Below, in pieces: positions 20,099-62,608 of a DNA stretch of 64,000 bases (position 1 is its first letter; the number at the start of each line of letters is the position of its first letter). Made by a program: the position numbers and the translations under genes. The notes under the pieces were generated by a model, which saw only the letters and a list, made by a program, of their open reading frames with translations, did not search any database and was not told where the DNA came from. The DNA lies in IMG/VR virus record IMGVR_UViG_3300050821_005035, positions 1 through 64,000 of that record; one strand, given 5' to 3'. Source of the stretch: a virus.

Positions 20099-20127
20099 AC
20101 CGTATCACACTTTCGGAAATTTGTCAA
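20099..20127 (-). promoter_or_regulatory. Promoter for glycosyltransferase/endolysin unit
   Basis: TTGACA (20122-20127), 17-bp spacer ending in TGA, and -10 TACGGT (20099-20104), overlapping the last codons of gmd. Drives 20073 leftwards to the endolysin and beyond. Confidence 0.65.
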
Positions 20128-21068
20128 CCTATTTCTAGCTCCGCGTCGATCATCATCCGGACCAGTTCGTTGAATCGCACTTTTGGCTCCCAACCCAGTA
20201 CCCGGCGAGCCTTGCTAGAGTCGCCGATCAGAACGTCTACCTCGGTTGGGCGGTACAGCCTCTCGTCGGTCTCAACGTGCTTCCGCCAATCTAGGTTGAG
20301 ATATCCGAATGCCTCGTCAAGAAACTCTTTTACGGAGTGCGCTTCCCCTGTTGCGATCACGTAGTCGTCCGGGAACGGCTGCTGGAGCATCAGGTGCATA
20401 GCCTCCACGTAATCTCCTGCGAATCCCCAATCTCGCATGGCGTCTAGATTGCCGAGGAACAACTTATCTTGCAAGCCTCGGGAGATGCGAACTGCGGCTT
20501 TCGTTATCTTTCTCGTAACGAAAGTTTCGCCGCGCCGGGGTGACTCGTGGTTGAAGAGGATGCCGTTGCACGCGAAGGTACCGTAAGCCTCCCGATGATT
20601 TACTGCAGACCAGTACGCGAACAGCTTGGCGATAGCGTACGGTGAGCGGGGGTGGAACGGGGTGCTCTCGTTAGTGGCCGTCGTATAGACCCCGCCATAC
20701 AGTTCCGAACTGCTGGCTTGATAAAATTTTATGCCCTTTTCTTTAATGGCTTCCAGTATGTTAAGGGCCGCGATCCCTGTGGCCTCTGCGGTGACGACCG
20801 GGATGTCGAAGCTGGTGCGAACCTGGCTTTGCGCGGCCAGGTGATAAACCTCGTCCGGCCCGATCATGTCGATGGTGTTCGTGGTGGAACTGGCGTCGGT
20901 CACGTCGCCGTAATGCAAGTGCAGGTCTCTGAATATGTGGTCAATCCGGCTGGTGTTGATCGAGGAGGAGCGGCGGATAATCCCGTGGACCTCGTAACCT
21001 TTGGACAACAAGAGTTCTGCGAGGTATGAGCCGTCCTGCCCGTTTATGCCCGTTATCAAAGCCTTCAT
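20124..21068 (-). CDS. gmd: GDP-mannose 4,6-dehydratase
   Basis: 314 aa short-chain dehydrogenase of the extended type. Converts GDP-D-mannose to GDP-4-keto-6-deoxy-D-mannose, precursor of GDP-L-fucose, perosamine, rhamnose and colitose. Visible: NAD(P) loop [12 protein letters not shown] at residues 5-16, SSSELYG with catalytic Ser/Glu, Y-x3-K in [25 protein letters not shown] (a near-diagnostic Gmd segment) and [19 protein letters not shown]. Slightly shorter than typical bacterial Gmd (about 340-370 aa). No GDP-fucose synthase is seen in this window, so the next step is either host-supplied or made by the neighbouring unusual dehydratase/SDR pair. Confidence 0.93.
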
Positions 21069-21871
21069 GACGCCCCCTCCAAGTTCAGCTTCTCAATCAG
21101 CCATTTCGTCTTCAATGTGTGGTATTCAGGTGAGCGGTGGTTCCAGTTCGACGCGCGCAAGTAGTGAATCCCGATAGGCTTGTCGTTTATGGAAATATTC
21201 TCGTACTCGGACGGATGAAAGTCGGTCGTCGGGTCGTCTGGAACGAAGTACTGCTGGATAAGAGTCGGATTCAGTTCCGGGTGAGATTGCAAGTAGAAGA
21301 AGCTCTGCCCTCCGATGTCTGTGACTATCCCGTTCACGAAGCTGCCCCACCAGTTGATTTGCTCCGGGTTCGGAAGTCTCGACATGTCGGCCAGCACCAG
21401 CGCGTCGTGCATGTGAATCCCGCCCAGGTTGGGGCGAGACTGCGGTATAAAGCACAGCGGCGTCGTTACCAGGTAGTCAGTCAGCTTGATAGGCTGGGTG
21501 AAGAACATGTCCGGGTGGAGGAGGCAGATGGCGCCCTTCTCTTTCATAATGTGGAACTCCCACGTATAAAAGCACCCGTAACAACCAGCGCAGTTGGGAT
21601 TGCTCCAAGAGCCTTGGCGGTTGAATACCGTGCACGACTTCTCTACAGCGTTGCACTTGTCTTCCAAGGACTGGACCCGCTCGACGTCGAATACCGCGAT
21701 TCCAAGCCTCCTGCATGTCTCGTCGATCTTGATACGTTCCGCTGGACGGTCAAACTTGGCGTTGTTTAAGATCGTAAACGTGAAGTCCTCTTGGATATAC
21801 TTCCAGAAAGACTTCAGCTGCAGTTCGATTAGGTCCGACCGGTTGCTCGTGAACGCGAATATGTTAATCAT
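21065..21871 (-). CDS. Putative glycosyltransferase (GT-A-like, 268 aa)
   Basis: [21 protein letters not shown] gives a GT-A-like first strand and helix. [11 protein letters not shown] (about residues 113-123) is at the DXD position, with [14 protein letters not shown] near the C-terminus may be the late catalytic or metal-binding His region. A CAGCYGC cluster sits in the middle. Coupled to gmd and to the next transferase by 4-base overlaps. No exact family. Confidence 0.6.
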
Positions 21872-22800
21872 CTGCTCTCCTGTGCTAGCTTGGCGCCGTC
21901 CAATAGGTTGTCGATTTTGTTTAAGTAGGTGTGGTTTTTGGCGACCTCATCCATCAGCGCGTGGAGAGTTTCCGGTGTGGTTCTAGATAGTTGTTCTCTC
22001 GCGTCATAAAACAGCGCGCGTGTATCCCAGTTATAAATCAGCTTTCCACGGAAAATCTCGTTAGCCCAAGGGTTGTTGGTCGCGCACATCTGGCCGTAAG
22101 ACAGCGCCTTGAAGACCCGACACGGCATGTACCCGACCTTGATTTGATACGCTAGGGAGATCGCTGGCGCGATATATGAGGCCTGCACCAGACGTACGTT
22201 CTCTTCCACAGATACGGGGGAGCCGCCGAATCCGCCGACCAGCTTAAAGTTGATTCCACTTTCTTTGCAGGCTGCAGCGAACGGAGCTAGCTCTGGTACC
22301 GAAGTGCCCACGTAGTTGACGTCCCGGCTCCAGTCTCGAAAGACCTTGCTCGGCTTGTTCGCCATAATCTCGTGAGGCAGGAGGTCTGTGGCCCAGCGGA
22401 AGACTACAGCGTCGTAAGAGTCCCAAGGCTGGGGGAAGAAGAACGCGTCCTTGCTCAGTTCCACCGCGTTCGAGGGTAGCTCCATGCTGTTCACGTAAAG
22501 GCCGTAGTTGATAGTTAAAAAGCCCTTCGTGTACTCTTTAGCCCGGGCTTCCATGTTGTGGACCGCGTAAATGCAGTCTGTCCGTAGAGGCATCCCCTTT
22601 ACAGCGTACTCCATGCTGATGAAGAAGGTGTTGGAGAAATCTATCTTAGAGATGTCGTCGTGCGCGTCCAGCCAAAGGACCTGGCGCTCCGGGAATCTGA
22701 ACTTAAGCGCGCGGTAAAAGGCCTCCAGTATGTGACGGAAGGAGTTGTACGCTCCGCTTTTAAATCCCCAAACGCAGAAGTTGCAGTTCTCCAGCTTCAT
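21868..22800 (-). CDS. Putative GT-B glycosyltransferase (310 aa)
   Basis: NYVGTSVPELAPFAAACKESGINFKLVGG (split by the Rossmann strand around residues 165-190) and then CRVFKALSYGQMCATNN (about 225-241) resemble the C-terminal nucleotide-sugar-binding half of GT-B enzymes. There, the family 4 E-x7-E is often reduced in phages. No DXD. Coupled on both sides. Acceptor unknown. Confidence 0.65.
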   Translation of the reverse strand: MKLENCNFCVWGFKSGAYNSFRHILEAFYRALKFRFPERQVLWLDAHDDISKIDFSNTFFISMEYAVKGMPLRTDCIYAVHNMEARAKEYTKGFLTINYGLYVNSMELPSNAVELSKDAFFFPQPWDSYDAVVFRWATDLLPHEIMANKPSKVFRDWSRDVNYVGTSVPELAPFAAACKESGINFKLVGGFGGSPVSVEENVRLVQASYIAPAISLAYQIKVGYMPCRVFKALSYGQMCATNNPWANEIFRGKLIYNWDTRALFYDAREQLSRTTPETLHALMDEVAKNHTYLNKIDNLLDGAKLAQESR

Positions 22801-23978
22801 TTGTATCCCAGGAAATATCCGTGAATAAGCTCGCCTACGTATCGAATGTCTTCAGGAGTTAGGTTCTGATGAATCCCGATCATGAACCCGCTGCGGGCCA
22901 GGTTTTGAGAGACCGGGTACTGCTCCATCATCCGGGGGAAAAGTTTCCTGTATGCGGGACTTTCCAAAAGTGGAAACATGTGGCGGGTTTCCACGCCGTG
23001 CTCTTCCAGATACATGAGCAGCTTCTCCCTGTCTACATACGGCTTGCAGATAATCGGGAACATCATCCACGAGTGAGTCGAGTCGTAAGGGACGTAAGGA
23101 AGTTGAATCTCCGAGATGCCGGAAAGAAGATTTATCAGCTGGCTCGCGTTCGCCTGCCGTTTTGCTGCGTTTTGAGAGAAGTGTCCCAGTTCCGCTAGCG
23201 CCAGCGCGGCCTCTATTTCCGTTGCCCTGTAAGAATATCCGACCCGGTCGAACTTGAATCGGCGCTCGACTATGTTTTGAAGACCAGAACCTGTCAGCCC
23301 GTTGGCCGCGTCGATGCTCGAATACACGCTGTCGCGCCCGTGAGCCATTAAGGAGCGGCACAGTTCGGCCAGCTTACCATCGTTGGTTGTAACCAGACCG
23401 CCTACGCCGCCGACTATGTGGTGGTTGACGTATGTGCTGAAGCATCCCATGTCCCCGAAGCTACCCACTGACTTTCCGTCAACTGTAGACCCAACCGATT
23501 CGCAGCTGTCCTCGATGACCTGCAGGCTGTGACTCTCGGCGATGTACATAATCTCAGGCATCTCTGCGGGTAGTCCGAAGAGGTGAACCGGGATAATTGC
23601 GCGAGTTTTCCGTGTGATCTTCTCTCCTATTTTGCCTGAAGCCATATTGAAGGTTCTAGGATTGACGTCGACAAAGACCGGGACCATGTTGTTTTGAAGG
23701 ACGATGTTGGATGTTGCGATGAAGGTCGTTGCGGGGACCAGAACCTCGTCGCCGTCTTTGTATCCGTGAACTTCTTTCAACGCTGTTAGCGCGACTTGGA
23801 GCGCGCTCGTTCCGCTGTTCATGAAGATGCCATGCTTGCAGCCGTGCATCGCTGCGAACTTCTCCTCGAACTCTCGCGTGTACTTTCCGTATGAAAGCCT
23901 GTTCGTGTCGAGGCAGTCGTTCACATACCTCTTGCCTTGATCTGAGATAGACAGCGTTCCCAGCGTAATTTTTCTCAT
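22797..23978 (-). CDS. DegT/DnrJ-type PLP enzyme with His in place of the Schiff-base Lys: sugar 3-dehydratase
   Basis: 393 aa from MRKITLGTLS, start preferred because of the GGGGGGACG ribosome site and ATGA overlap. Fold type I signatures: NSGTSALQVAL (54-64), VPATTFIATS (81-90), IEDSCESVGS (155-164). At the usual PLP-lysine position the sequence is STYVNHHIVGGVGGLV, with H186 instead of Lys. That exchange is the hallmark of PLP 3-dehydratases such as ColD, which removes the 3-OH of GDP-4-keto-6-deoxymannose. It therefore probably deoxygenates C3 of the Gmd product rather than transaminating it. No [2Fe-2S] cysteine motif was obvious, which favours a ColD-like over an E1/RfbH-like mechanism. 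Confidence 0.85.
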   Translation of the reverse strand: MRKITLGTLSISDQGKRYVNDCLDTNRLSYGKYTREFEEKFAAMHGCKHGIFMNSGTSALQVALTALKEVHGYKDGDEVLVPATTFIATSNIVLQNNMVPVFVDVNPRTFNMASGKIGEKITRKTRAIIPVHLFGLPAEMPEIMYIAESHSLQVIEDSCESVGSTVDGKSVGSFGDMGCFSTYVNHHIVGGVGGLVTTNDGKLAELCRSLMAHGRDSVYSSIDAANGLTGSGLQNIVERRFKFDRVGYSYRATEIEAALALAELGHFSQNAAKRQANASQLINLLSGISEIQLPYVPYDSTHSWMMFPIICKPYVDREKLLMYLEEHGVETRHMFPLLESPAYRKLFPRMMEQYPVSQNLARSGFMIGIHQNLTPEDIRYVGELIHGYFLGYK

Positions 23979-24544
23979 CGTCCCCCCGTGAACATGCTGT
24001 TCGGTCCTAACCACGATTCTCTGGCGGTTCTGGCGAACTTGTCACGGTCAGATAGAATCGGGTTATCCGTCAAAGGCCAGTCGATGCCGATGTCTGGGTC
24101 ATTCCAAAGGACCGCCCGGTCTTCGCCGACGTACTCGTCGCAGTTATATAGAACGATTGTGTTGGGTTCCAAGGCGCAGTATCCGCGCGCAAATCCTGCT
24201 GGCGCCCAGACTTGATAATTATTACGCTCGTGAGCGATGACGTTGTGGTACCTCAAAAATGTGGGAGAATTCATGCGGATATCGACGGCCACCAGGTAAG
24301 CCGCGCCGTTGATGACCTGCATCAGCTTCCCCATCGGCGGGTCTAGCTGGTAGTGAAGGCCCCGGATGACTCCGCGCTCCGAGCGGGAGACCATCTGTCG
24401 AAGGACGCGGGACGGGAAACAAAACAGTGGGTCGTCTTGTAGCCGGGTCACAGTTAACGAGCCTCGGTTATCTGAGAAGGTTGTTGGTTGAATGACCTTG
24501 ACTTCTCCGTTGAAGTGCTCGTCTACAATTTCAAAGAGTCTCAT
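23975..24544 (-). CDS. dTDP-4-dehydrorhamnose 3,5-epimerase-like cupin (RfbC family)
   Basis: 189 aa, the usual RfbC length. RGSLTVTR, then VIRGLHYQLDPPMGKLMQVINGAAYLVAVDIR, carries the catalytic His of GLHYQ and the cupin core. AGFARGYCAL and VLYNCDEYVGEDR (catalytic Tyr region) follow, then DIGIDWPL. The family epimerises C3/C5 of NDP-4-keto-6-deoxy sugars. In this cluster it may set stereochemistry of a 4-keto-(di)deoxyhexose. The true nucleotide (GDP or dTDP) is unknown. Coupled by ATGA to both neighbours. Confidence 0.88.
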   Translation of the reverse strand: MRLFEIVDEHFNGEVKVIQPTTFSDNRGSLTVTRLQDDPLFCFPSRVLRQMVSRSERGVIRGLHYQLDPPMGKLMQVINGAAYLVAVDIRMNSPTFLRYHNVIAHERNNYQVWAPAGFARGYCALEPNTIVLYNCDEYVGEDRAVLWNDPDIGIDWPLTDNPILSDRDKFARTARESWLGPNSMFTGGR

Positions 24545-25530
24545 AGTCCACCTTTATGCCACTCGATTGTGTTTCTTAATCCCTCTTCCAGTCCCACAAA
24601 ATGTGCTTTCTTAAACTCGTTCATAACCCGCCAGACGTCCATCACGACGTTGCCTGACGCGCCTGCCATCTGGTTTGAGCCGGTAAAGAGTCGGGAGCCG
24701 GATAGCCGGGCGATCTCGCAGGCGACGTTCTCGATGGTGTAGCTGTTTGGAGAGCCGACATTGTACACGGCCTTCGTGCCGTGGAGGAGAATATTCCACA
24801 TGATCTCGACCGCGTCTCTAATGTAGCAGAAGGTACGTAGCTCGTCCCCGGAAAATTTCATCGCAACCACCCCGTCTTTCAAAGACTGGTCGATGAACGT
24901 GCTGACCGCTCTGGAATCGCCTCGTCGAGCGCCAGGCCCGTATACGAGAGACAGCCTTGCAGACTGCGCGTCGACGACTCCGGTTTCACGGAACGCGTTT
25001 ACGACAGCCTCTCCGCAGCGTTTGCCTTCGATGTACCCGGCCCTGGGGTGATACGGGTTAGTGGTTCCGATCTGATACTCGTCCGCGTTACTCAGCCCGC
25101 TGTAAACCTCGGAGGAGCTAGCGAAGAGAAACTTTCCACCAGGCTTCAAATATTGTAGCAGCTGGCGGGTCCACTCCACGTTGATGCGAATGGTCTCCGC
25201 TGGATTCTTTGTGAACCGGGAAGGCTGCGCGTACCCGGCGAGATGAATCACCGCGTCTAGGTCGGTGAAGACATTCTGTTCTGATAACAGCTGGATATCA
25301 TCCAGGCAGGCGATCTCCTTGGTGTGGTCCTCTGGCTCCGAGTGGCAGTAGCCGTACGCCTTAATCTTCATACCGTCGTTCTTCAAGAGACCCAGGGTCG
25401 CTAGGAAGTGCGTCCCGATCTGGCCTGTGGCGCCGGTGACCAGGACAGACTTTCCCTCCAGCCAGCTGAAGTCCACGGCCTCGATGACCTTGTGCGCGTC
25501 CGAGTAGATGATGCCAAGCCTATTTTTCAC
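24541..25530 (-). CDS. NAD-dependent epimerase/dehydratase (extended SDR, 329 aa)
   Basis: The GTG start at 25530 follows GGAG and overlaps the end of the TPP subunit gene; the promoter at 25557-25585 lies upstream. Rossmann loop VTGATGQIGTHFL (about 34-46), FASSSEVYSG with the catalytic Ser, Y-x3-K in YIEGKRCGE, and YGPGARRGDSRAVSTFI. It may reduce or epimerise the 4-keto group at the end of the nucleotide-sugar route, or act as a 4,6-dehydratase-like enzyme. The exact reaction cannot be told. Confidence 0.85.
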   Translation of the reverse strand: MKNRLGIIYSDAHKVIEAVDFSWLEGKSVLVTGATGQIGTHFLATLGLLKNDGMKIKAYGYCHSEPEDHTKEIACLDDIQLLSEQNVFTDLDAVIHLAGYAQPSRFTKNPAETIRINVEWTRQLLQYLKPGGKFLFASSSEVYSGLSNADEYQIGTTNPYHPRAGYIEGKRCGEAVVNAFRETGVVDAQSARLSLVYGPGARRGDSRAVSTFIDQSLKDGVVAMKFSGDELRTFCYIRDAVEIMWNILLHGTKAVYNVGSPNSYTIENVACEIARLSGSRLFTGSNQMAGASGNVVMDVWRVMNEFKKAHFVGLEEGLRNTIEWHKGGL

Positions 25531-26059
25531 TATAGTAGTCTCCGAATTCCACGCATATAGTAGCACGTCCGTCCGTTCTTGTCAAGGCCTTTTCGTAGGC
25601 CGGGAAGATGTCCTCTGGCTCGTCTAGCCGGATGACCTCGACCGTCGTCAGCATTTGTCTCAGCGGTTCTGTGAAGTCGCCGACATGCTGCGCTTGAGGA
25701 TGCAAAGGCCTTTCACTCCCTATTCCCACTCGAACAATTACATTAGGGCAATAACCATTCTGGCTCATTTGAGAAAGTTTGTCAAGGTGTAAAATCAGCT
25801 GATTCATGGCGAGCAACAAAAAGTTGTACCGGGGATATATTGTCACCGGGATGAAGCCAGCGAGGGCCAGACCGATACTCGCTCCTAGCTGTAATTCTTC
25901 CGCAACGGGAAATTCTGTGAGCTTTTCTTTAGGAACATTGACGAGCGTGCCGCTCATACCGGTTCCAGGATAAGCGACCGCTTGCCCTAAGAAAATCGTG
26001 CGAGGGTCGGCTCCCAGATAATCCATAGCTCTGGTTAGTTCTTGTTGGTATTTTCCCAT
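25520..26059 (-). CDS. TPP-dependent enzyme, PYR-domain subunit (transketolase/E1-beta-like, 179 aa)
   Basis: Start at 26059 (MGKYQQELTR) by TGATG coupling. LGQAVAYPG, then FPVAEELQLGASIGLALAGFIPV, contains the conserved Glu (in AEE) that activates thiamine diphosphate. RPLHPQAQHVGDF follows, as in E1-beta/transketolase PYR domains. The usual C-terminal third domain is missing, so with the next gene it makes a minimal two-subunit TPP enzyme. Similar pairs occur in branched-sugar clusters, where a two-carbon unit is added to a ketosugar. That role is inferred. Confidence 0.8.
   Translation of the reverse strand: MGKYQQELTRAMDYLGADPRTIFLGQAVAYPGTGMSGTLVNVPKEKLTEFPVAEELQLGASIGLALAGFIPVTIYPRYNFLLLAMNQLILHLDKLSQMSQNGYCPNVIVRVGIGSERPLHPQAQHVGDFTEPLRQMLTTVEVIRLDEPEDIFPAYEKALTRTDGRATICVEFGDYYSEK
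25557..25585 (-). promoter_or_regulatory. Internal promoter of the sugar operon
   Basis: TTGACA (25580-25585), 17-bp spacer, and -10 TACTAT (25557-25562), inside the 3' end of the TPP subunit gene. Gives separate expression of the SDR, epimerase, dehydratase and gmd block downstream. Confidence 0.7.
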
Positions 26060-26688
26060 CAGAAGGTCACTCTTTTCCCTGCCCCAGCGTGGGGCCACTT
26101 CTCGGCCTTGTATCTAAAATGCGTAACGTGATCTGAGAACTTACTTTTGTGTTCTGCGTCTGTTGTAAACTCGTCGCCGAATTCGTTCTTCAATCCCCAC
26201 GCCAGTCGAGTATCCGTGCAGACAGAAAGGTTGTTGTCCTCGACGTGGAAGTATACTGGTAGATCAAAATTTTCTACGTACTTAATGCTTTCGTAAGCTA
26301 TCCCTGTTTCGGCTGTCATGTCACCTAGAAAAATATGGACGCGCTCATTACCACATCTGCGCTGGATAGCCATGCCAAGGCCTACACCGATGGGTAAAAC
26401 CCCACCAATGATTGCACTAGATAAAATGCGGTACTCAGGAAAGCTGAGAGCAATTGAGTATCCAGCCATAATCTTGGTTTTCAACTCTGCGGGAGGCACT
26501 CCTTTTAAAAGGCAGGGGTAATGGCTTCTCCACGAACAAAGCACCCAATCTTGGGCGCGTATGCCTTTGAAGATTTCGATCAGTTCTTTCTCCCCGCCAG
26601 AGTAAAGATGAGTAGGACTTCTTATCAGACCAGCGTTAAACTCAGCGGCGATGTCATCTTCGAATGCTATTAGTTCTTCCGGTGTCAT
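26059..26688 (-). CDS. TPP-dependent enzyme, PP-domain subunit (E1-alpha-like, 209 aa)
   Basis: Strong start (GGAGATAAC). SWRSHYPCLLKG, then IIGGVLPIGVGLGMAIQ, then FLGDMTAETGIAYESIKYV and VEDNNLSV, form the TPP-magnesium motif. GDM replaces the usual GDG, with the Asn pair about 28 residues on. It pairs with the PYR subunit downstream (TGATG overlap). Reaction probably decarboxylation of a 2-oxo acid and transfer of the fragment to an acceptor; a nucleotide-activated ketosugar acceptor is inferred from neighbours. Confidence 0.85.
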   Translation of the reverse strand: MTPEELIAFEDDIAAEFNAGLIRSPTHLYSGGEKELIEIFKGIRAQDWVLCSWRSHYPCLLKGVPPAELKTKIMAGYSIALSFPEYRILSSAIIGGVLPIGVGLGMAIQRRCGNERVHIFLGDMTAETGIAYESIKYVENFDLPVYFHVEDNNLSVCTDTRLAWGLKNEFGDEFTTDAEHKSKFSDHVTHFRYKAEKWPHAGAGKRVTF

Positions 26689-26689
26689 G

Positions 26690-27487
26690 TTATCTCCAGA
26701 GGTCCGGGTGCAGCAGGTGAATCAACCGCACCAGTCCGCCGTGTACTTTCGTGGCTTGTGTTATCATAGAAACTTTTTTGACTCGGTAGTGGAACAAAGG
26801 CTCGTTTACCACCCCGACGGTCCAACCGCGCTTCAAGATGTCGAGCCACATATTCCAGTCCTCGTATCCGAGAACTTTCGTGCTGCCCGCGACGTCGACG
26901 AAGATAGTCTCGTATCCGGGGGTTTGTTCGAAGGCCGTGCGGCGAATCAAAGAGCATACAGGAAGGTCATTGCTGACCATCTCGCTCGCGAGAGACAGTC
27001 CCTTCGGCGGGATGCGGTTGTGCAACAGTCCCTCGTACTGCATGTCCGTCGACACGATGCCGATGCCTTGGTTAACCATCAAGGGAACTGTGCGCTCCAA
27101 GTAGTTGGCCTCGATCCAGTCGTCGGAATCGAGGGGGAGGATAAACTCTCCGTCTCCAGCTTTTATGCCCTCGTTCCTGGACGTTGAGAGGCCTCGGTTC
27201 TCCCGGTCAATAATTTTCAGATTCCCGTTGAAGTTCCAGCACCCGGGGACTGGTTCCATCATCTCAGCTTCCGCGTAACGCTTGACCATCAACTCTCTCA
27301 TCTCTCCGTTCCAACGGTCTACTATCTCTCGCACGACCACCATCGAGTGGTCCGTGGAGCCGTCGTTGACTAGGGTTACATCGAAGTCCGGGTACGTCTG
27401 GGCCAACGCAGAATTCAAGCACTGCTCGATAAATTCCTCTTGGTTGAAAAGAGGAATCACGATGTTGACTTTGCCGACCTTAATCAT
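26690..27487 (-). CDS. Glycosyltransferase family 2
   Basis: Start at 27487 (MIKVGKVNIV) overlaps the upstream stop. Classic GT2 order: VIPLFNQEEFIEQCLNSALA (about 11-30), LVNDGSTDHS (about 38-47), DRENRGLSTSRNEGI (about 95-109), then LPLDSDDWIEANYL with the DSD metal motif, and a YEDWNMWL ED motif in the acceptor half. Inverting transfer of a sugar from an NDP donor. It sits beside the GT11/GT6/GT31/GT12 set and probably adds a core or branching residue of the same glycan. Confidence 0.9.
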   Translation of the reverse strand: MIKVGKVNIVIPLFNQEEFIEQCLNSALAQTYPDFDVTLVNDGSTDHSMVVVREIVDRWNGEMRELMVKRYAEAEMMEPVPGCWNFNGNLKIIDRENRGLSTSRNEGIKAGDGEFILPLDSDDWIEANYLERTVPLMVNQGIGIVSTDMQYEGLLHNRIPPKGLSLASEMVSNDLPVCSLIRRTAFEQTPGYETIFVDVAGSTKVLGYEDWNMWLDILKRGWTVGVVNEPLFHYRVKKVSMITQATKVHGGLVRLIHLLHPDLWR

Positions 27488-28197
27488 AGCCTGGTCCACC
27501 TTTCGGGTACGATATCCGAGTAATCTACATCTGGATTTGAGAACCACTTCTTCGGCGCCACAACCAACTTCTGGGGGCCGAGCCACGCTCCCCACCACCC
27601 ATAGCTGCTGTTGGCGATCACTTGGTACTCGCAGCTGGAGATAAGCGTTAAGTCCTCGTACTTGTTTCCGCCCTCGATGACCTTGAAGTCGGAGGGAAAG
27701 TTTTCCTTACACCATTGGCGGTCATCGGAGAATACCATCACAGGAACAAGTGCTCCCACTTCGCGCCGGATATGGGCGACCCCTTCTCGGTAATAGTCGA
27801 GAGTCGGCAGGCCGTGAAAGTGCTCCAGTCCGACGTAGTCTTGGCGACGGACGTGAACTGCGATAAAGGGAAGCAGAGGCCTGTTATTGAGAGGGAAGGC
27901 CAGACGAACCATCTGAGTGAAATACTTTTCTGACTGCCAGTAACCAATCATCGTGCAGTCTTCTGTTGGTTCCAGGTAGCTGGGGTTGTACCTCATGCCG
28001 TCTTCATAGACTTCTCTGCCACTCGATTTACCGTCGGCCTTTATTCCGAAGTATCCGAGAGAGTACTCGCGATGGGTGCCCTCGATCAAATAGGACCTGT
28101 CCAGCTGGACCTCATAGCCTCTGTCTTGCAGCGTCATAGCGAAGGCACACTGAAACATCTGGTTGCATAACCCGCCAAGTAGTCGTACCGTAATCAT
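27484..28197 (-). CDS. Alpha-1,2-fucosyltransferase-like (GT11)
   Basis: 237 aa. GT11 signatures: RLLGGLCNQMFQCAFAM at the N-terminus (G-G-L-N-Q-F pattern), HVRRQDYV (about residues 115-122; the HxRR GDP-fucose-binding motif) and ANSSYGWWGAWLG (about 192-204). These enzymes transfer L-fucose from GDP-fucose to the 2-OH of galactose, making the H antigen in animals. Somewhat shorter than typical bacterial FutC (about 290-300 aa). Directly between the GT6-like and GT2 genes with 4-base overlaps. gmd in the same cluster supplies the GDP-fucose precursor. Confidence 0.9.
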   Translation of the reverse strand: MITVRLLGGLCNQMFQCAFAMTLQDRGYEVQLDRSYLIEGTHREYSLGYFGIKADGKSSGREVYEDGMRYNPSYLEPTEDCTMIGYWQSEKYFTQMVRLAFPLNNRPLLPFIAVHVRRQDYVGLEHFHGLPTLDYYREGVAHIRREVGALVPVMVFSDDRQWCKENFPSDFKVIEGGNKYEDLTLISSCEYQVIANSSYGWWGAWLGPQKLVVAPKKWFSNPDVDYSDIVPERWTRL

Positions 28198-28889
28198 CGC
28201 GCGCCCTTATTCAGCGCCAGAATCTTTGGCGTGACGTTCAGTCCCGCTGCCTTCCACTTGTCTGTGTAATACGCGGACGCGCTTTCCGGGTAGCAGTAAG
28301 AGGGATCGAGAACCGTACAAGGCGGGTGCTCGTGAAGGTAGCGATTCAAGTGCGATTCGTCATGCCATACTGCGAGCACTCCGCAAGATTCATCCACACT
28401 GATGTGATAAGCTAGATCGGTAGCCATTCTCAAAAATGTTGAGGTTGCGCCGCCGTTGAATCCCCCACAAAAGTATTTATTTGCAGAACCTGGAGCAATA
28501 GAGGCCACTGAGTGTATTCTCCGTTCCGGAGTCCCGCACGAGCCAACGTATCCTGGGTGCAGGGTAGCGGTTATGCCGTTGGAGAAGACTTCCTCCCCGA
28601 CCGGAGCGACAAATCGCATATCAGAGTCTATCCAAAAAACTTGGTCGTACCCTTTCAATAGCCACTCCTGATTCAGAATTGTGTGATACCTGTATAGCGT
28701 TTCCTTGGGGAAACCGAGAGCTTTCTTGGTTAGTACAAATTTCGCATCGAAGGTGCTGGCCGCTTCCAGAGTATCCGTCCACACAATCGCATCGTGTTCG
28801 ACAAAAAACTCTTGAGCAGATTCCAAAAGTGGTGGTACGAATGCATGGTACTTTTCTCCTGTGGCGATCACGAGCAGAGCGGTCTTCAC
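28194..28889 (-). CDS. GT6-family (ABO blood-group type) alpha-1,3-Gal/GalNAc transferase-like
   Basis: 231 aa, matching the catalytic-domain length of bacterial GT6. Visible: VFWIDSDMRF (DSD, the DXD metal motif; many bacterial GT6 have NXN instead), HPGYVG, YFCGGFNGG and especially AVWHDESHLNRYLHEHPP followed by LDPSYCYPE. That last segment is the most conserved segment of ABO and alpha-1,3-galactosyltransferases. The family retains anomeric configuration and transfers Gal or GalNAc in alpha-1,3 linkage to a (fucosylated) galactose. Directly follows the GT31-like gene and precedes GT11. Donor specificity cannot be read. Confidence 0.9.
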   Translation of the reverse strand: MKTALLVIATGEKYHAFVPPLLESAQEFFVEHDAIVWTDTLEAASTFDAKFVLTKKALGFPKETLYRYHTILNQEWLLKGYDQVFWIDSDMRFVAPVGEEVFSNGITATLHPGYVGSCGTPERRIHSVASIAPGSANKYFCGGFNGGATSTFLRMATDLAYHISVDESCGVLAVWHDESHLNRYLHEHPPCTVLDPSYCYPESASAYYTDKWKAAGLNVTPKILALNKGAR

Positions 28890-29575
28890 GAATTCACCGT
28901 CCGGTACACGAGGTCCGCTGTTTCCATCCAGCGGTACTCAAGCTTATACCCCGACTTGTACTGCGACGACGGGAAGTGCGACGAGTAAGAGTTAGCAGGC
29001 AGGTCGAGCGCGATCATGTCGCCTCTTGCTAGTTCCTTGCCGAGCACCTGGCCCACCCATAGGTCTTCGGCCCACCCGTGAGGGAACGTGTCCGCGATCA
29101 CGCACATCGCGTCTCTAGAAAGGAAGTAGCCAAAACCGCCGCTGGCCCAGGGATAGCACTCCGGGATGTGAGTAACAATGCCACGGCGATCAATCGCGTC
29201 GTAAGGGAAGGTCTCGCCTATCGGCTTGCTGATCTTGCCCGTGTAGTCGTAACGCTGGTAGCCGCAGGTCAGCAGCTGGTTCACCTTCACGTACGTGTCG
29301 GTGTCCGCTAAAAACAGATGATCTACGTTCTTCCCAAAGGCCCACTGACATATCGCTCGTGTCTTTGATGGCAGAGAATTGTAGTCATCTTCTGTATCGA
29401 CTACGACCTCATCGCTTTTATAAACACGACTAGTCCTTCCATCTCTTTCTGCTCCCACGAAAAATTTTAGATGCGCTTTGCCTCTCAGTTCCTGCCCCCA
29501 CGTTTTTCTAATCACGTCGTGGTACCCGTTATCTAAGTCGGCCTTGCAGCTTTTAATTGCTATAATTAGGCTCAT
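28886..29575 (-). CDS. GT31-like beta-1,3-galactosyl/GlcNAc transferase
   Basis: 229 aa from MSLIIAIKSC (GGAGATAAA upstream, ATGA with the HNH gene). VIRKTWGQEL, then HLFLADTDTYVKVNQLL (DTD metal motif), YPWASGGFGYFLSRDAM and AEDLWVGQVLG are the four signature blocks of GT31 (beta-1,3-galactosyltransferase, B3GNT, Fringe). The enzyme transfers Gal or GlcNAc in beta-1,3 linkage. Combined with GT11 and GT6 it could make a type-1-like chain. No membrane anchor, unlike the animal enzymes. Confidence 0.87.
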   Translation of the reverse strand: MSLIIAIKSCKADLDNGYHDVIRKTWGQELRGKAHLKFFVGAERDGRTSRVYKSDEVVVDTEDDYNSLPSKTRAICQWAFGKNVDHLFLADTDTYVKVNQLLTCGYQRYDYTGKISKPIGETFPYDAIDRRGIVTHIPECYPWASGGFGYFLSRDAMCVIADTFPHGWAEDLWVGQVLGKELARGDMIALDLPANSYSSHFPSSQYKSGYKLEYRWMETADLVYRTVNS

Positions 29576-30072
29576 TTTATCTCCGGTTTGAAAGACGTTC
29601 CACAATTTGGGCAGCATACTTTACGTACTCGATTACCCGCTTGTTCTTTTGATGTTGCCCATCGAACGTTTCCTGGTTCGTAATTACCATCATTATCAAT
29701 TCTATCGACAGAGTGTTTTAAACTAGGTCGAGGTCCAATATCCTGAATAAACTCGCGGAAATCTGTGAATAAAAATTTTATTCCACGGCCTCCGTAGTTC
29801 ATCCAAGCCTTGTGCTTCGGATTCGTACACAGCAGCTTTGCAGACGCAAAAATTCTGTGCTCTCTTGTTCCGTAAACTCCGTGCGTTATTTTGTAGCAGG
29901 TATGGCACGCTTTTGTATCCCCGCTATTTAAAGCCGCCGTTCTAACTTTGGCAGTACGTCCACATATACAAAAACACAGCCACACGGTCGCTCTTTGCTG
30001 CCTTCCTGCAGGCCATGCAACCGTTAGTTTTCCAAAAATCATTCCTGATAAATCTTCGAAATCCGACCTCAT
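29572..30072 (-). CDS. HNH homing-type endonuclease
   Basis: 166 aa. C-terminal HNH core KHSVDRIDNDGNYEPGNVRW and then ATSKEQAGNR is typical of phage HNH homing endonucleases. Zinc-type cysteines lie before it (CFCIC, CHTC) and after it (CCPNC). It sits between GT31 and GT12 genes, coupled to both by 4-base overlaps, so it looks like a free-standing homing gene that entered the glycan locus without breaking it. Confidence 0.9.
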   Translation of the reverse strand: MRSDFEDLSGMIFGKLTVAWPAGRQQRATVWLCFCICGRTAKVRTAALNSGDTKACHTCYKITHGVYGTREHRIFASAKLLCTNPKHKAWMNYGGRGIKFLFTDFREFIQDIGPRPSLKHSVDRIDNDGNYEPGNVRWATSKEQAGNRVRKVCCPNCGTSFKPEIK

Positions 30073-59608: not shown

Positions 59609-59643
59609 ATCGTCTCACGCATCCGGATTTCACGCAATAGTAC
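59609..59643 (-). promoter_or_regulatory. GTAC-box promoter 7
   Basis: -10 GACGAT (59609-59614), spacer 17 bp ending TGA, -35 TTGCGT (59632-59637), box AGTAC (59639-59643). The TAG stop of 59643 is part of the box. The leader (CAACCAGTGAGGAACAAC) resembles those at promoters 4 and 5. Confidence 0.75.
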
Positions 59644-59807
59644 TACTGGCTAATTCTTTGGCCCTCGGATTGCTTGGCATCTTTGGACTCGAACCACTCG
59701 GACACGATGAGTCTGACCAGGTGCGCGACCGAGACCTGGTTGCGGTCGGCTGTGCGCTTGAGTCGGTCGAGCAGTTCAGGCGGCATGTGGAGGAGGAATG
59801 GCTTCAT
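59643..59807 (-). CDS. Ribbon-helix-helix (Arc/CopG-like) protein (54 aa)
   Basis: FLLHMPPELLDRLKRTADRNQVSVAHLVRLIVSEWFES reads as one beta strand followed by two helices, the standard RHH layout. It would bind DNA as a dimer or tetramer. Sits next to the control region at 60281-60540 and is a candidate regulator of the GTAC boxes or of the ACCTATATAGGT operators. Start overlaps the upstream stop. Confidence 0.75.
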   Translation of the reverse strand: MKPFLLHMPPELLDRLKRTADRNQVSVAHLVRLIVSEWFESKDAKQSEGQRISQ

Positions 59808-60287: not shown

Positions 60288-60316
60288 AGCATAGCAAACC
60301 TATATAGGTTTGTCAA
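60288..60316 (-). promoter_or_regulatory. Leftward promoter with operator O1 in the spacer
   Basis: -10 TATGCT (60288-60293), 17-bp spacer, -35 TTGACA (60311-60316). The spacer holds the perfect 16-bp palindrome AAACCTATATAGGTTT (60296-60311). A repressor bound there would block transcription of the GIY-YIG gene and everything behind it. Confidence 0.78.
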
Positions 60317-60442
60317 CGCCAAACTCGCAGAATTGTGTCCAATATGATACCCCATTTTATGACACCTTGTTGGGGCAGGAAAGTAGAGGACAGTGCCAAA
60401 CACGGTGTCATGAAAGTGGCGGTCTGGGACACGAGCTCGCTG

Positions 60443-60475
60443 AAACCTATATAGGTCTCGTGGAAGTCAGGTCAA
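60443..60475 (-). promoter_or_regulatory. Leftward promoter with operator O2 over the -10
   Basis: TTGACC (60470-60475), 16-bp spacer, -10 TATATA (60448-60453) inside a second copy of the palindrome (60443-60458, ACCTATATAGGT at 60445-60456). Confidence 0.6.
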
Positions 60476-60502
60476 TAGTAACTAATTGAACACAAAAAAT
60501 GG

Positions 60503-60536
60503 TTCACATAAGGATATTCAAGACCTATATAGGTTT
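60503..60536 (+). promoter_or_regulatory. Rightward promoter with operator O3 over the -10
   Basis: TTCACA (60503-60508), 17-bp spacer, TATATA (60526-60531) inside the third palindrome (60521-60536). Divergent from O1/O2. No clear rightward gene follows before 61570, so it may make an RNA or start the origin transcript. Confidence 0.6.
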
Positions 60537-60539
60537 GAA

Positions 60540-61440
60540 ACTTCGCGCGTCAGGCCCGGACGCCTTTTCCGTATGACACAATCCAATCGCGCGCTGGTAA
60601 GTCCTTCCGCGTTGATATGTTACGAGCGGATTTTTCCAAAACACGGTGTCATACAGGTCAAATGACACAATCCTGTGACGCGCTCGACCTCCGAATGTCC
60701 GAAAAACTCCCCATTCTTCGAACATAGACACAAAGTGTCAACTCGATCACGTCAGAGCGGCGCCCAAGGTCAAATCATTGCAGTGACCCCAACCGCGATA
60801 CTTTTGACAGCTTGCGGGTGACCTTACCCAGTGACGAATCACTCCGATTCAACCCAACAGAAACACTCGGCACCACGCGCAACCTGCTTAATCTTAAAGA
60901 CTTACAAGATGTGACAACACATGGGCAGCGAGCCGCGATTGTCAGCAAATTCTTAGAGAGCGATTTTCTCGCCGCAACTCCAGCATTTTCAACGATTTCC
61001 CACTTCGGCAACGATCTTGCTCCCCCAGCAAGCCAAGGGCCAAAGCTTAAACCACTGATTCGACGGCATTTAGCCTCGATCTGGCAGTTTGTCATTTAAT
61101 AGTGCATTAATCGCCAACCCTCCTTGCAAGGGTTCGGGCAACGATCTAGGTCTGGGCAGCTGGCCCGAGCATAGAGCGCCGACTTCCTTGGCGCTGTTGA
61201 TATCAAACGACTTACGAAATATTTTCGAGTATGGCCTCGATCTTGCTCCCCCAGCAATTGCATGGCCGGGGGCACTGGCATGCCGCAGTCGCCCCTAGGC
61301 GGCCTCGACCGTCCGCCCACGTATTCGTGGCAAGTGCTCATGTACCCAGGGGATGTCACACCCCCAGGATAAGTACCGCCTTATCTATAGGTTACCCCCG
61401 CCACCCTGCCAGGGGGCGGTCACCAGACCCACCCCGCCTT
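60540..61440. other. Noncoding-looking region with a duplicated 20-mer
   Basis: No frame has a good ribosome site, family match or operon context. Overlapping open frames on both strands (for example plus 60812-61099 and minus 60775-61095) are probably chance. The same 20-mer occurs at 61012-61031 and 61238-61257, and GCAACGATCT recurs near 61137. A strong GC hairpin with one bulge (CCGCC/GGCGG with CCCT/AGGG) lies at about 61403-61423. The region could be an origin, a pseudogene or a packaging or regulatory region. Confidence 0.5.
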
Positions 61441-61445
61441 TTCTC

Positions 61446-61474
61446 TTGACATAGGCCGGGATGTGTGGTATAGT
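61446..61474 (+). promoter_or_regulatory. Strong rightward promoter
   Basis: TTGACA (61446-61451), 17-bp spacer ending in TGG, -10 TATAGT (61469-61474). Transcribes the plus-strand operon starting at 61570, with a leader of about 90 nt. Confidence 0.85.
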
Positions 61475-61499: not shown

Positions 61500-61548
61500 C
61501 GTCCGGCCTGATCTCCGGACGCGCGGTGGGGTGCTCATATCACCCCAC
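61500..61548 (+). promoter_or_regulatory. Two stable hairpins in the leader
   Basis: CGTCCGG/CCGGACG (61500-61521, 8-nt loop) followed by GTGGGGTG/CACCCCAC (61526-61548, 7-nt loop), then a short gap and the AGGAGG ribosome site (61562-61567). They may protect the mRNA 5' region, act as an attenuator or be a protein or RNA-binding site. Confidence 0.65.
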
Positions 61549-61569
61549 TGCCCCTTATATGAGGAGGCT

Positions 61570-61854
61570 GTGATTAGCAACAATTATGTGGAACCCACAA
61601 ACCCGTTCGATGTTATTCTACCTGGCGACCCTGGTTATGTGGAACCCACAAAGTCTAACTATGTGGAACCCACAAAGTCTAACTATGTGGAACCCACAAG
61701 CGACCGGCACAGCACCAAAGGATTCACGGTTCGTGTGGAACCCACAACGAGAGAGCAGATACGAAGGCTCTCCGAGAGAACAGGTTTTTCGACAAACGAC
61801 ATAATCAAGGCATGCATCAAGCGGGCTATGCCTTACCTGGAAGATAAGTTTTAA
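61570..61854 (+). CDS. Ribbon-helix-helix regulator with repeated YVEPT motif (94 aa)
   Basis: C-terminal GFTVRVEPTTREQIRRLSE and TGFSTNDIIKACIKRAMPYL form the RHH fold (strand, two helices), as in Arc/CopG/ParG DNA-binding proteins. The N-terminal half has four YVEPT copies (NNYVEPT, PGYVEPT, SNYVEPT twice). The same pentapeptide in the RHH strand (RVEPT) makes a fifth. Each is encoded by TGTGGAACCCACA. The start is uncertain: GTG at 61570 is only 2 bases from GGAGG, while ATT at 61573 has a normal 5-base spacing. A transcription or partition regulator; autoregulation suspected. Confidence 0.8.
   Translation: MISNNYVEPTNPFDVILPGDPGYVEPTKSNYVEPTKSNYVEPTSDRHSTKGFTVRVEPTTREQIRRLSERTGFSTNDIIKACIKRAMPYLEDKF
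61587..61746. repeat. Five copies of the palindrome TGTGGAACCCACA inside the gene
   Basis: TGTGG-AAC-CCACA at 61587-61599, 61638-61650, 61662-61674, 61686-61698 and 61734-61746. Start-to-start spacing is 51, 24, 24 and 48 bases. All five copies are identical over 13 bp although only 5 codons of them are constrained by the protein. This suggests selection on DNA, such as operator or partition-site function. Confidence 0.8.
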
Positions 61855-61894
61855 ACACAATCCCCCTAGAAAGTAGGGGATAAGGAAGCACCCA

Positions 61895-62608
61895 ATGGAA
61901 GTCAAACCACAATCGGTCGAGCAGTTCCTCGTCGAGCAGCTGGACAAGATCGCTCCCGGCAGGTATACCCTCGCGAGCGCGCTGCAGCTTTTCAAGACCC
62001 GGCTCCGGTTCCCCTGCAACCACTTGAAGGGCGGCGGGCGCAGGTACTCCCTCCTGTCTCCGGGGAAAGACTACAACATAAGCATCTTCACGTTCCCTAC
62101 CGGCGTCACCGAGATCAAGTGCCTTTACAACTGTGGCCTTAAAGTTCGCAGCGACGAGAAAGAGTTGGTTTCAGCGTACAACGAGATATTCGACCTCCCA
62201 ACGTCCAACTACAAGGCGTCGGCAGAAGTCATAACGCTTATGAAGAACGGCAAAGTTATCCCCTTAGACCCGGGACCCGCGCCGACGTGCTCCGACGACC
62301 ATCGTAAGTGTATTAGGGAATCGAACGAGCTGTTCTTAGAATATCTTGAACGAGGCCTCCGCGACGGACGCATCTTACCGAACAACCAGATTCTCGGCGG
62401 AACTTTTCCTCACCCGGACCCGATTGAGGCGCCGGAATCCAGCCTACCGCGTAAGATAGTCGAACGCTTCCGGAAGATGAAGCAACGCCAGGCTATATTG
62501 AAAGCAACAGCCTCTTTCCAAGATTTAATCCCGGCACTAGAACCAGTGAAAGTTAACACCAAGATTCGAAAGGCCCGTAAGACCCAATCCCGCAAACGCG
62601 GAAAGTAA
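61895..62608 (+). CDS. Hypothetical protein with Cys/His cluster (237 aa)
   Basis: Ribosome site weak, but it is in the operon of 61446. FPCNHLKGGGRRYS and then KCLYNCGLKV give C-x-H and C-x3-C residues (about residues 37-80), a possible zinc site like CHC2-type zinc domains. The C-terminal 60 residues are very Lys/Arg-rich (IRKARKTQSRKRGK), suggesting DNA binding. No family recognised. Confidence 0.72.
   Translation: MEVKPQSVEQFLVEQLDKIAPGRYTLASALQLFKTRLRFPCNHLKGGGRRYSLLSPGKDYNISIFTFPTGVTEIKCLYNCGLKVRSDEKELVSAYNEIFDLPTSNYKASAEVITLMKNGKVIPLDPGPAPTCSDDHRKCIRESNELFLEYLERGLRDGRILPNNQILGGTFPHPDPIEAPESSLPRKIVERFRKMKQRQAILKATASFQDLIPALEPVKVNTKIRKARKTQSRKRGK

Follow-up and report, generated by a model that had tools for sequence, protein, structure and literature searches.

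Five identical inverted repeats within a small RHH-type gene of an uncultured phage, and a different palindrome within the gene of its relative

The locus, its promoters and its distribution

A small RHH-type gene in an uncultured-phage virus record (75,133 bases, or 75 kb; termed G000) was analyzed within a 64-kb window, by which we mean the whole stretch of DNA studied, positions 1 to 64,000 of the record. The gene is placed at the switch between leftward and rightward gene blocks and is read on the plus strand from a GTG at 61570 to a stop at 61854, yielding 94 codons and a protein of 94 aa. The ribosome-binding site, GAGGAGG (61561-61567, +), stands 2 bases upstream of the GTG. Farther upstream is a sigma-70-type promoter, TTGACA-17-TATAGT with an extended -10 (61446-61474, +), followed by a leader with two hairpins (61500-61551, +), the first formed by CGTCCGG/CCGGACG (61500-61521, +) and the second by GCGGTGGGGTG/CACCCCACTGC (61523-61551, +). 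A further hairpin, CCCCTAGAAAGTAGGGG (61863-61879, +), lies between the RHH-type gene and the next gene, which encodes a 237-aa protein of unassigned function (61895-62608, +) that is 55-72% identical to its relatives.

Six related contigs were found through this downstream 237-aa gene; the protein itself had no match in genome_contigs. Only one of the six, L033 (IMGVR_UViG_3300021479_000013, or G001; an 82-kb contig of 82,399 bases), contains a detected relative of the RHH-type gene, with the same promoter layout, leader and position, so that the two members detected are those of G000 and L033. The leader stems differ in L033 yet still pair, and the hairpin behind the gene has likewise changed its bases and kept its pairing (CCCGTAGAAAGTACGGG). 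More generally, the hairpin ahead of the 237-aa gene varies in its stem with pairing retained at all four places where it was noted (61863-61879 in the window, 4969-4985 in L033, 1245-1261 in L036 and 899-915 in L037). L037 (G004) has this promoter and leader too, but they are followed by an HNH endonuclease gene (481-885) in place of the RHH-type gene, as though accessory genes could land at the leader. Neither the cassette promoter nor the RHH-type gene is present in L035, L036, L042 or L043, as judged from a promoter scan of L035, L036 and L042 and from the sequences, L043 having the same sequence as L035. Since four of the six other related contigs lack the RHH-type gene and a fifth has an HNH gene where it would stand, we consider it an accessory gene and not a core replication gene. 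In these comparisons, promoter, leader and RHH-type gene behave as a unit. As a tyrosine integrase is encoded in four of the seven records, the phage group is probably temperate.

Other features of these genomes were observed as well. A conserved repeat, TTGCTCCCCCAGCAA, often with TTTGGCAACG / GCCAAA arms, occurs at 61003-61050 and 61230-61270 of the window and, in one or two copies, in the long noncoding stretch of every relative but G001, where GCTTGCCCCAGCAAGC is found, with similar copies in L035, L036, L037, L042 and L043. It may be a structured element of RNA or DNA; it had no match in Rfam, and the Rfam search as a whole returned nothing significant. In addition, the translations of a run of minus-strand genes at 20124-29617 resemble glycosyltransferases, a nucleotide-sugar epimerase and aminotransferases, probably serving surface or glycan modification.

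The same control region also serves a second, leftward RHH gene (59643-59807, -; 2967-3113 in L033 and 3164-3334 in L042). Its promoter, TTGACA-17-TATGCT (60288-60316, -), has the palindrome CAAACCTATATAGGTTTG as its spacer, and further copies of ACCTATATAGGT lie at 60445-60456 and 60523-60534. Among the relatives, the leftward promoter again has a palindrome in or at its spacer, with more copies upstream and with a different sequence in each: ACCTATATAGGT in G000, AGTGATATCACT in L033 and ACTGATATCAGT in L042, while the leftward region of L035 has related GATATC-centred sites, CGATATCG. These arrays extend over 60288-60534 (-) of the window, 3145-3440 of L033, 3531-3979 of L042 and 3660-4850 of L035. 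The palindromes apparently serve the leftward RHH repressor, and, read from their sequence and placement, they form a clear series of what would be classical promoter operators whose specificity changes between relatives. A leftward RHH gene accompanied by relative-specific palindromes indicates that the pairing of an RHH protein with changing palindromes is normal in these phages.

Different palindromes within the same gene

The rightward cassette promoter contains no copy of its gene's palindrome; all copies in G000 are inside the ORF. There, TGTGGAACCCACA is found five times within 160 bp, at 61587-61599 (offset 17 from the start codon), 61638-61650, 61662-61674, 61686-61698 and 61734-61746, all without strand assignment, so that the candidate sites span +17 to +176 of the ORF. 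All five are in one codon phase and encode (Y/R)VEPT with the identical codons GTG GAA CCC ACA, as an earlier note on this DNA had observed. That note had called the repeat a palindrome; the copies are indeed identical, and each is an inverted repeat with 5-bp arms flanking a 3-nt AAC centre, not a perfect palindrome. In the genome-wide motif count that the note had proposed, the whole 75,133-base record has no further exact copy of TGTGGAACCCACA outside the gene, and the one-mismatch TGTGGNNNCCACA versions elsewhere in the 64-kb window are isolated and at chance level. When the protein was recoded 20,000 times with phage codon usage, five identical 13-mers were never obtained; the maximum was four, reached twice.

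The five copies do not, by their number, represent five events. Copies 2-4 are inside a 24-bp tandem repeat, TATGTGGAACCCACAAAGTCTAAC, which reduces the array to about three independent events. Outside the palindrome, copy 1 agrees with the others at little more than a few flanking bases, and copy 5 at a single one. Searches with the array returned no viral match and three ordinary tandem repeats in MAGs; in one of these (L079, from a Clostridia MAG) the word also codes for VEPT, there as part of a proline-rich linker repeat that is unrelated, and the other two are plain tandem repeats. Searching viral contigs with a 16-base word gave single, chance-level matches only. Because the phase of the sites is constant, part of the array is tandem and the word codes for VEPT in the unrelated L079, the G000 array by itself is ambiguous and would fit a peptide repeat too.

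The relative in L033 provides the decisive comparison. Its protein has in common with that of G000 an N-terminal NPFDV(I/L)LPGD-GYV(E/D)PTKS and an RHH-like C-terminus, and yet its gene lacks the TGTGGAACCCACA array. Instead, the 318-bp gene carries four copies of another palindrome, GGGGCCCC (the longest being ACTAAGGGGCCCCTTAGT), in codon phases 0, 1, 2 and 1, that is, in all three frames, encoding GAP, RGP, KGP and GGP. These are all four of the GGGGCCCC copies in the 82,399-base contig, and five relatives have none; in 20,000 recodings of the L033 protein, more than two copies never appeared. The places of the first and last sites correspond between the two genes: the centre of the first site is 23 bases from the start codon in G000 and 22 in L033, and the last site falls in both at the turn between the strand and helix 1 of the predicted RHH domain. 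In G000 this last site is copy 5, over RVEPTTREQIRRL, in agreement with the earlier placement of the last copy in the RHH strand region. Comparing L033 with G000, the array is conserved at the DNA level and the sequence of the site has been exchanged.

The L033 sites are, moreover, kept against a group-wide avoidance of the word that they contain. GGGCCC is absent from G000, G002, G003, G004 and G005, where about 134 occurrences would be expected from base composition and about 48 from a maximal-order Markov model, and G001 has seven, four of them in the RHH-type gene. Many 6-bp palindromes are strongly avoided in the window and in G001-G005 (L056-L077), among them CGATCG, GGATCC, CCGCGG, CTCGAG, GCCGGC and GGGCCC, and GATC-containing words are missing in G002, G003 and G005. 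This pattern suggests heavy restriction pressure in the host.

Since the L033 array lies in other frames with its first and last sites in matching places, the best reading of the two genes is that the repeats were selected as DNA sites, the peptide repeat being a by-product, and we consider it very probable that they are functional at the DNA level. The earlier note had proposed such a by-product, and a relative without the YVEPT repeat and with another palindrome in three frames supports it. It had also named the case that would speak for the opposite, a relative that keeps the peptide repeat and has lost the palindrome; L033 shows the reverse, with the reservation that it retains a single GYVDPT whose site, the counterpart of copy 2, has decayed to GTGGACCCCAC.

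The sites could, however, belong to another phage or host protein, the RHH-type gene being a mere carrier. We infer binding by the gene's own product, which leaves room for such a protein, and GGGCCC, a word of restriction type, is one that the group avoids. Against this, the sites occur only inside the RHH-type gene, and between G000 and G001 they change along with the RHH domain, the RHH proteins being 30% identical and those of the next gene 72%; we therefore regard a foreign binder as unlikely. A repeat of peptide or minisatellite type that has no regulatory meaning, and in which YVEPT spread by slippage and brought the palindrome along, would account for the tandem copies 2-4 and for the VEPT-coding word in the L079 linker and in ordinary tandem repeats elsewhere. 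Such a one-frame repeat at the peptide level, with the whole unit duplicated, is nevertheless confined to copies 2-4 of G000; it explains neither copy 5 nor an L033 array that lies in three frames and encodes no peptide repeat, and it seems to us quite improbable.

The predicted protein and other roles for the array

The predicted G000 protein has a low-confidence N-terminal half and an RHH-like C-terminal half (GFTVRVEPTTREQIRRLSERTGFSTNDIIKACIKRAM). Profile searches gave weak matches to PHROGs of Arc-like repressors (E 0.03) and transcriptional regulators (E 0.03), and Pfam RHH_1 matched the domain at E 0.08, below the cut-off. When aligned with the leftward RHH proteins, the domain shows a clean common strand-helix-helix pattern, and a joint profile of the domain and the leftward RHHs had AvtR (0.007) and ParG (0.017) as its best two matches in the PDB. 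Two helices, at residues 61-71 and 75-91, were predicted in a low-confidence single-sequence monomer model, for which Foldseek returned matches too weak to be informative, among them the RHH proteins AmrZ, NikA and CdbA at E above 5. The profile matches and the alignment pattern are consistent with an RHH identity and argue for it weakly.

As a direct query against viral contigs, phages and plasmids, the RHH protein found nothing useful. The phage match MT835973 proved spurious, with no RHH gene there, and matches in L045 and L046 have only an LPGDPGYVEP stretch in common with the RHH protein. This stretch belongs to an unrelated phage contig (L045, 4739-5054; L046), in which a small protein has LLPGDPGYVEPATQG at its end, resembling ILPGDPGYVEPTKS of the RHH protein. 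This likeness is probably due to chance, as the pattern itself partly selected it.

Multiple inverted repeats within the gene of the protein that binds them are also the layout of phage lambda O, whose iterons lie inside its own gene and in which extra iterons add residues to the protein (PMC5043065, PMC7466680). Lambda O with ori-lambda, likewise a (near-)palindromic array inside a gene, is the closest architectural precedent. By analogy, the G000 array could consist of iterons, and the protein could be a replication or nucleoprotein initiator with the origin in its own gene, a role for which the location at the switch between gene blocks would be suitable. Lambda O, however, is a core gene with an adjoining A+T-rich region and is not an RHH protein, whereas four of the six other contigs lack the RHH-type gene and a fifth has an HNH gene in its place. 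Next to the array there is no strongly A+T-rich stretch (the best 40 bp in or beside the gene are 65% AT, versus 75% at 60472), the GC content being 49% in the array and 44% in the rest of the gene; GC skew, inspected by eye, gives no usable test for an origin, since the genes switch direction at that same point. We know of no RHH initiators of this kind, and we judge an origin within the gene to be rather improbable.

A partition or centromere-like array had been offered as an option in the earlier note; the RHH protein would then be a ParG- or omega-like adaptor and the array its centromere. ParG combines an unstructured N-terminal part with an RHH domain at its C-terminus and ranks second among the PDB matches of the RHH profile, and arrays of short sites are typical of such systems. 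This option has lost ground, in that a search with AAA_31 found no ParA-type ATPase in G000, G001, G002, G004 or G005, records that may be incomplete, and the integrases in four of the seven records point to integration and not to plasmid maintenance; we hold it to be very unlikely. Finally, that the sites act as mRNA hairpins in translational control or attenuation is very improbable: UGUGG-AAC-CCACA is a possible 5-bp hairpin (-4.6 kcal/mol) and the G000 transcript folds better than shuffled versions (z -4.1), but much of that signal comes from the leader hairpins and inter-repeat pairing, and three of the four L033 sites, having almost no loop, fold as short RNAs worse than most shuffles.

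Related arrangements and a candidate mode of autorepression

The sites are most readily explained as operators of the RHH protein itself, and binding of the palindromes by the gene's own product is, in our estimation from the sequences, likely. In its predicted RHH-like C-terminal domain and palindromic sites about 12 bp long, the gene resembles Arc, Mnt, CopG, AvtR and ParG. The operators of those proteins are usually at promoters or centromeres, whereas the sites in the G000 gene are inside the coding sequence.

Binding within a regulator's own ORF has been described for C.Kpn2I, which acts there as a roadblock to RNA polymerase in a negative feedback, and its authors suggest that such sites are perhaps widespread in that family (PMC6237814). 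Like C.Kpn2I, the G000 product would be a small DNA-binding regulator with sites, here candidate ones, in its own ORF downstream of the promoter. C.Kpn2I, however, belongs to the C-protein family and not to the RHH proteins, and it has a single C-box near the start that also serves a divergent methyltransferase promoter; its setting is restriction-modification, as opposed to a phage cassette with a five-site array. Stoperators of cluster A mycobacteriophages offer another parallel, as the repressor acts on elongation via many short sites (PMC6550527, PMC9283540) whose sequence changes between relatives, with the differences that stoperators are asymmetric, genome-wide and not packed in the repressor gene, and that the repressor is not an RHH protein. 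The earlier note's remark that it knew of no described example thus fails in general, given C.Kpn2I and lambda O, and stands for a multi-site intragenic array of an RHH protein, which was not found in the literature searched. Related arrangements are known; an RHH multi-site array in its own gene is not among them.

On this basis, we propose that the locus is an accessory cassette of a probably temperate phage, consisting of a promoter, a structured leader and one RHH repressor gene, that would have been inserted before the rightward operon. The five palindromes would be operators of the RHH protein within its own coding sequence, an arrangement that the earlier note had also inferred, with autoregulation by road-block as one option. 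Being away from the promoter, bound dimers could not compete with RNA polymerase for it; they would instead halt the elongating polymerase as a roadblock, lowering both the cassette transcript and read-through into the 237-aa gene. The spacings of the sites (51, 24, 24 and 48 in G000; about 70, 37 and 59 in L033) have no helical phasing, and a defined cooperative complex is accordingly not evident. We infer all three steps, namely recognition of the sites by the protein that the gene encodes, repression, and a block to elongation, and autorepression by this full mechanism is, on balance, somewhat favoured.

The N-terminal half of the protein would then be mostly a reading of the operator array. 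We suggest, tentatively and with some doubt, that this half exists mainly as a carrier of operators, so that operators and DNA-binding domain, tied to each other by a single ORF, change together and bring a new, self-consistent specificity whenever recombination exchanges them. In the same reading, even the last operator coincides with codons for the strand and turn that would read the DNA, a suggestion to which we give similarly limited credence.

If true, the gene would be a compact regulator that passes on its switch, operators and specificity together, and this would explain how mosaic phages can swap repressor specificities with the match between operator and repressor intact. G000 and L033 would then constitute a two-member natural experiment in which the code of the DNA-binding strand and the operator change together in one frame, and the very short list of proteins known to repress from within their own coding sequence would gain an RHH, multi-site example.
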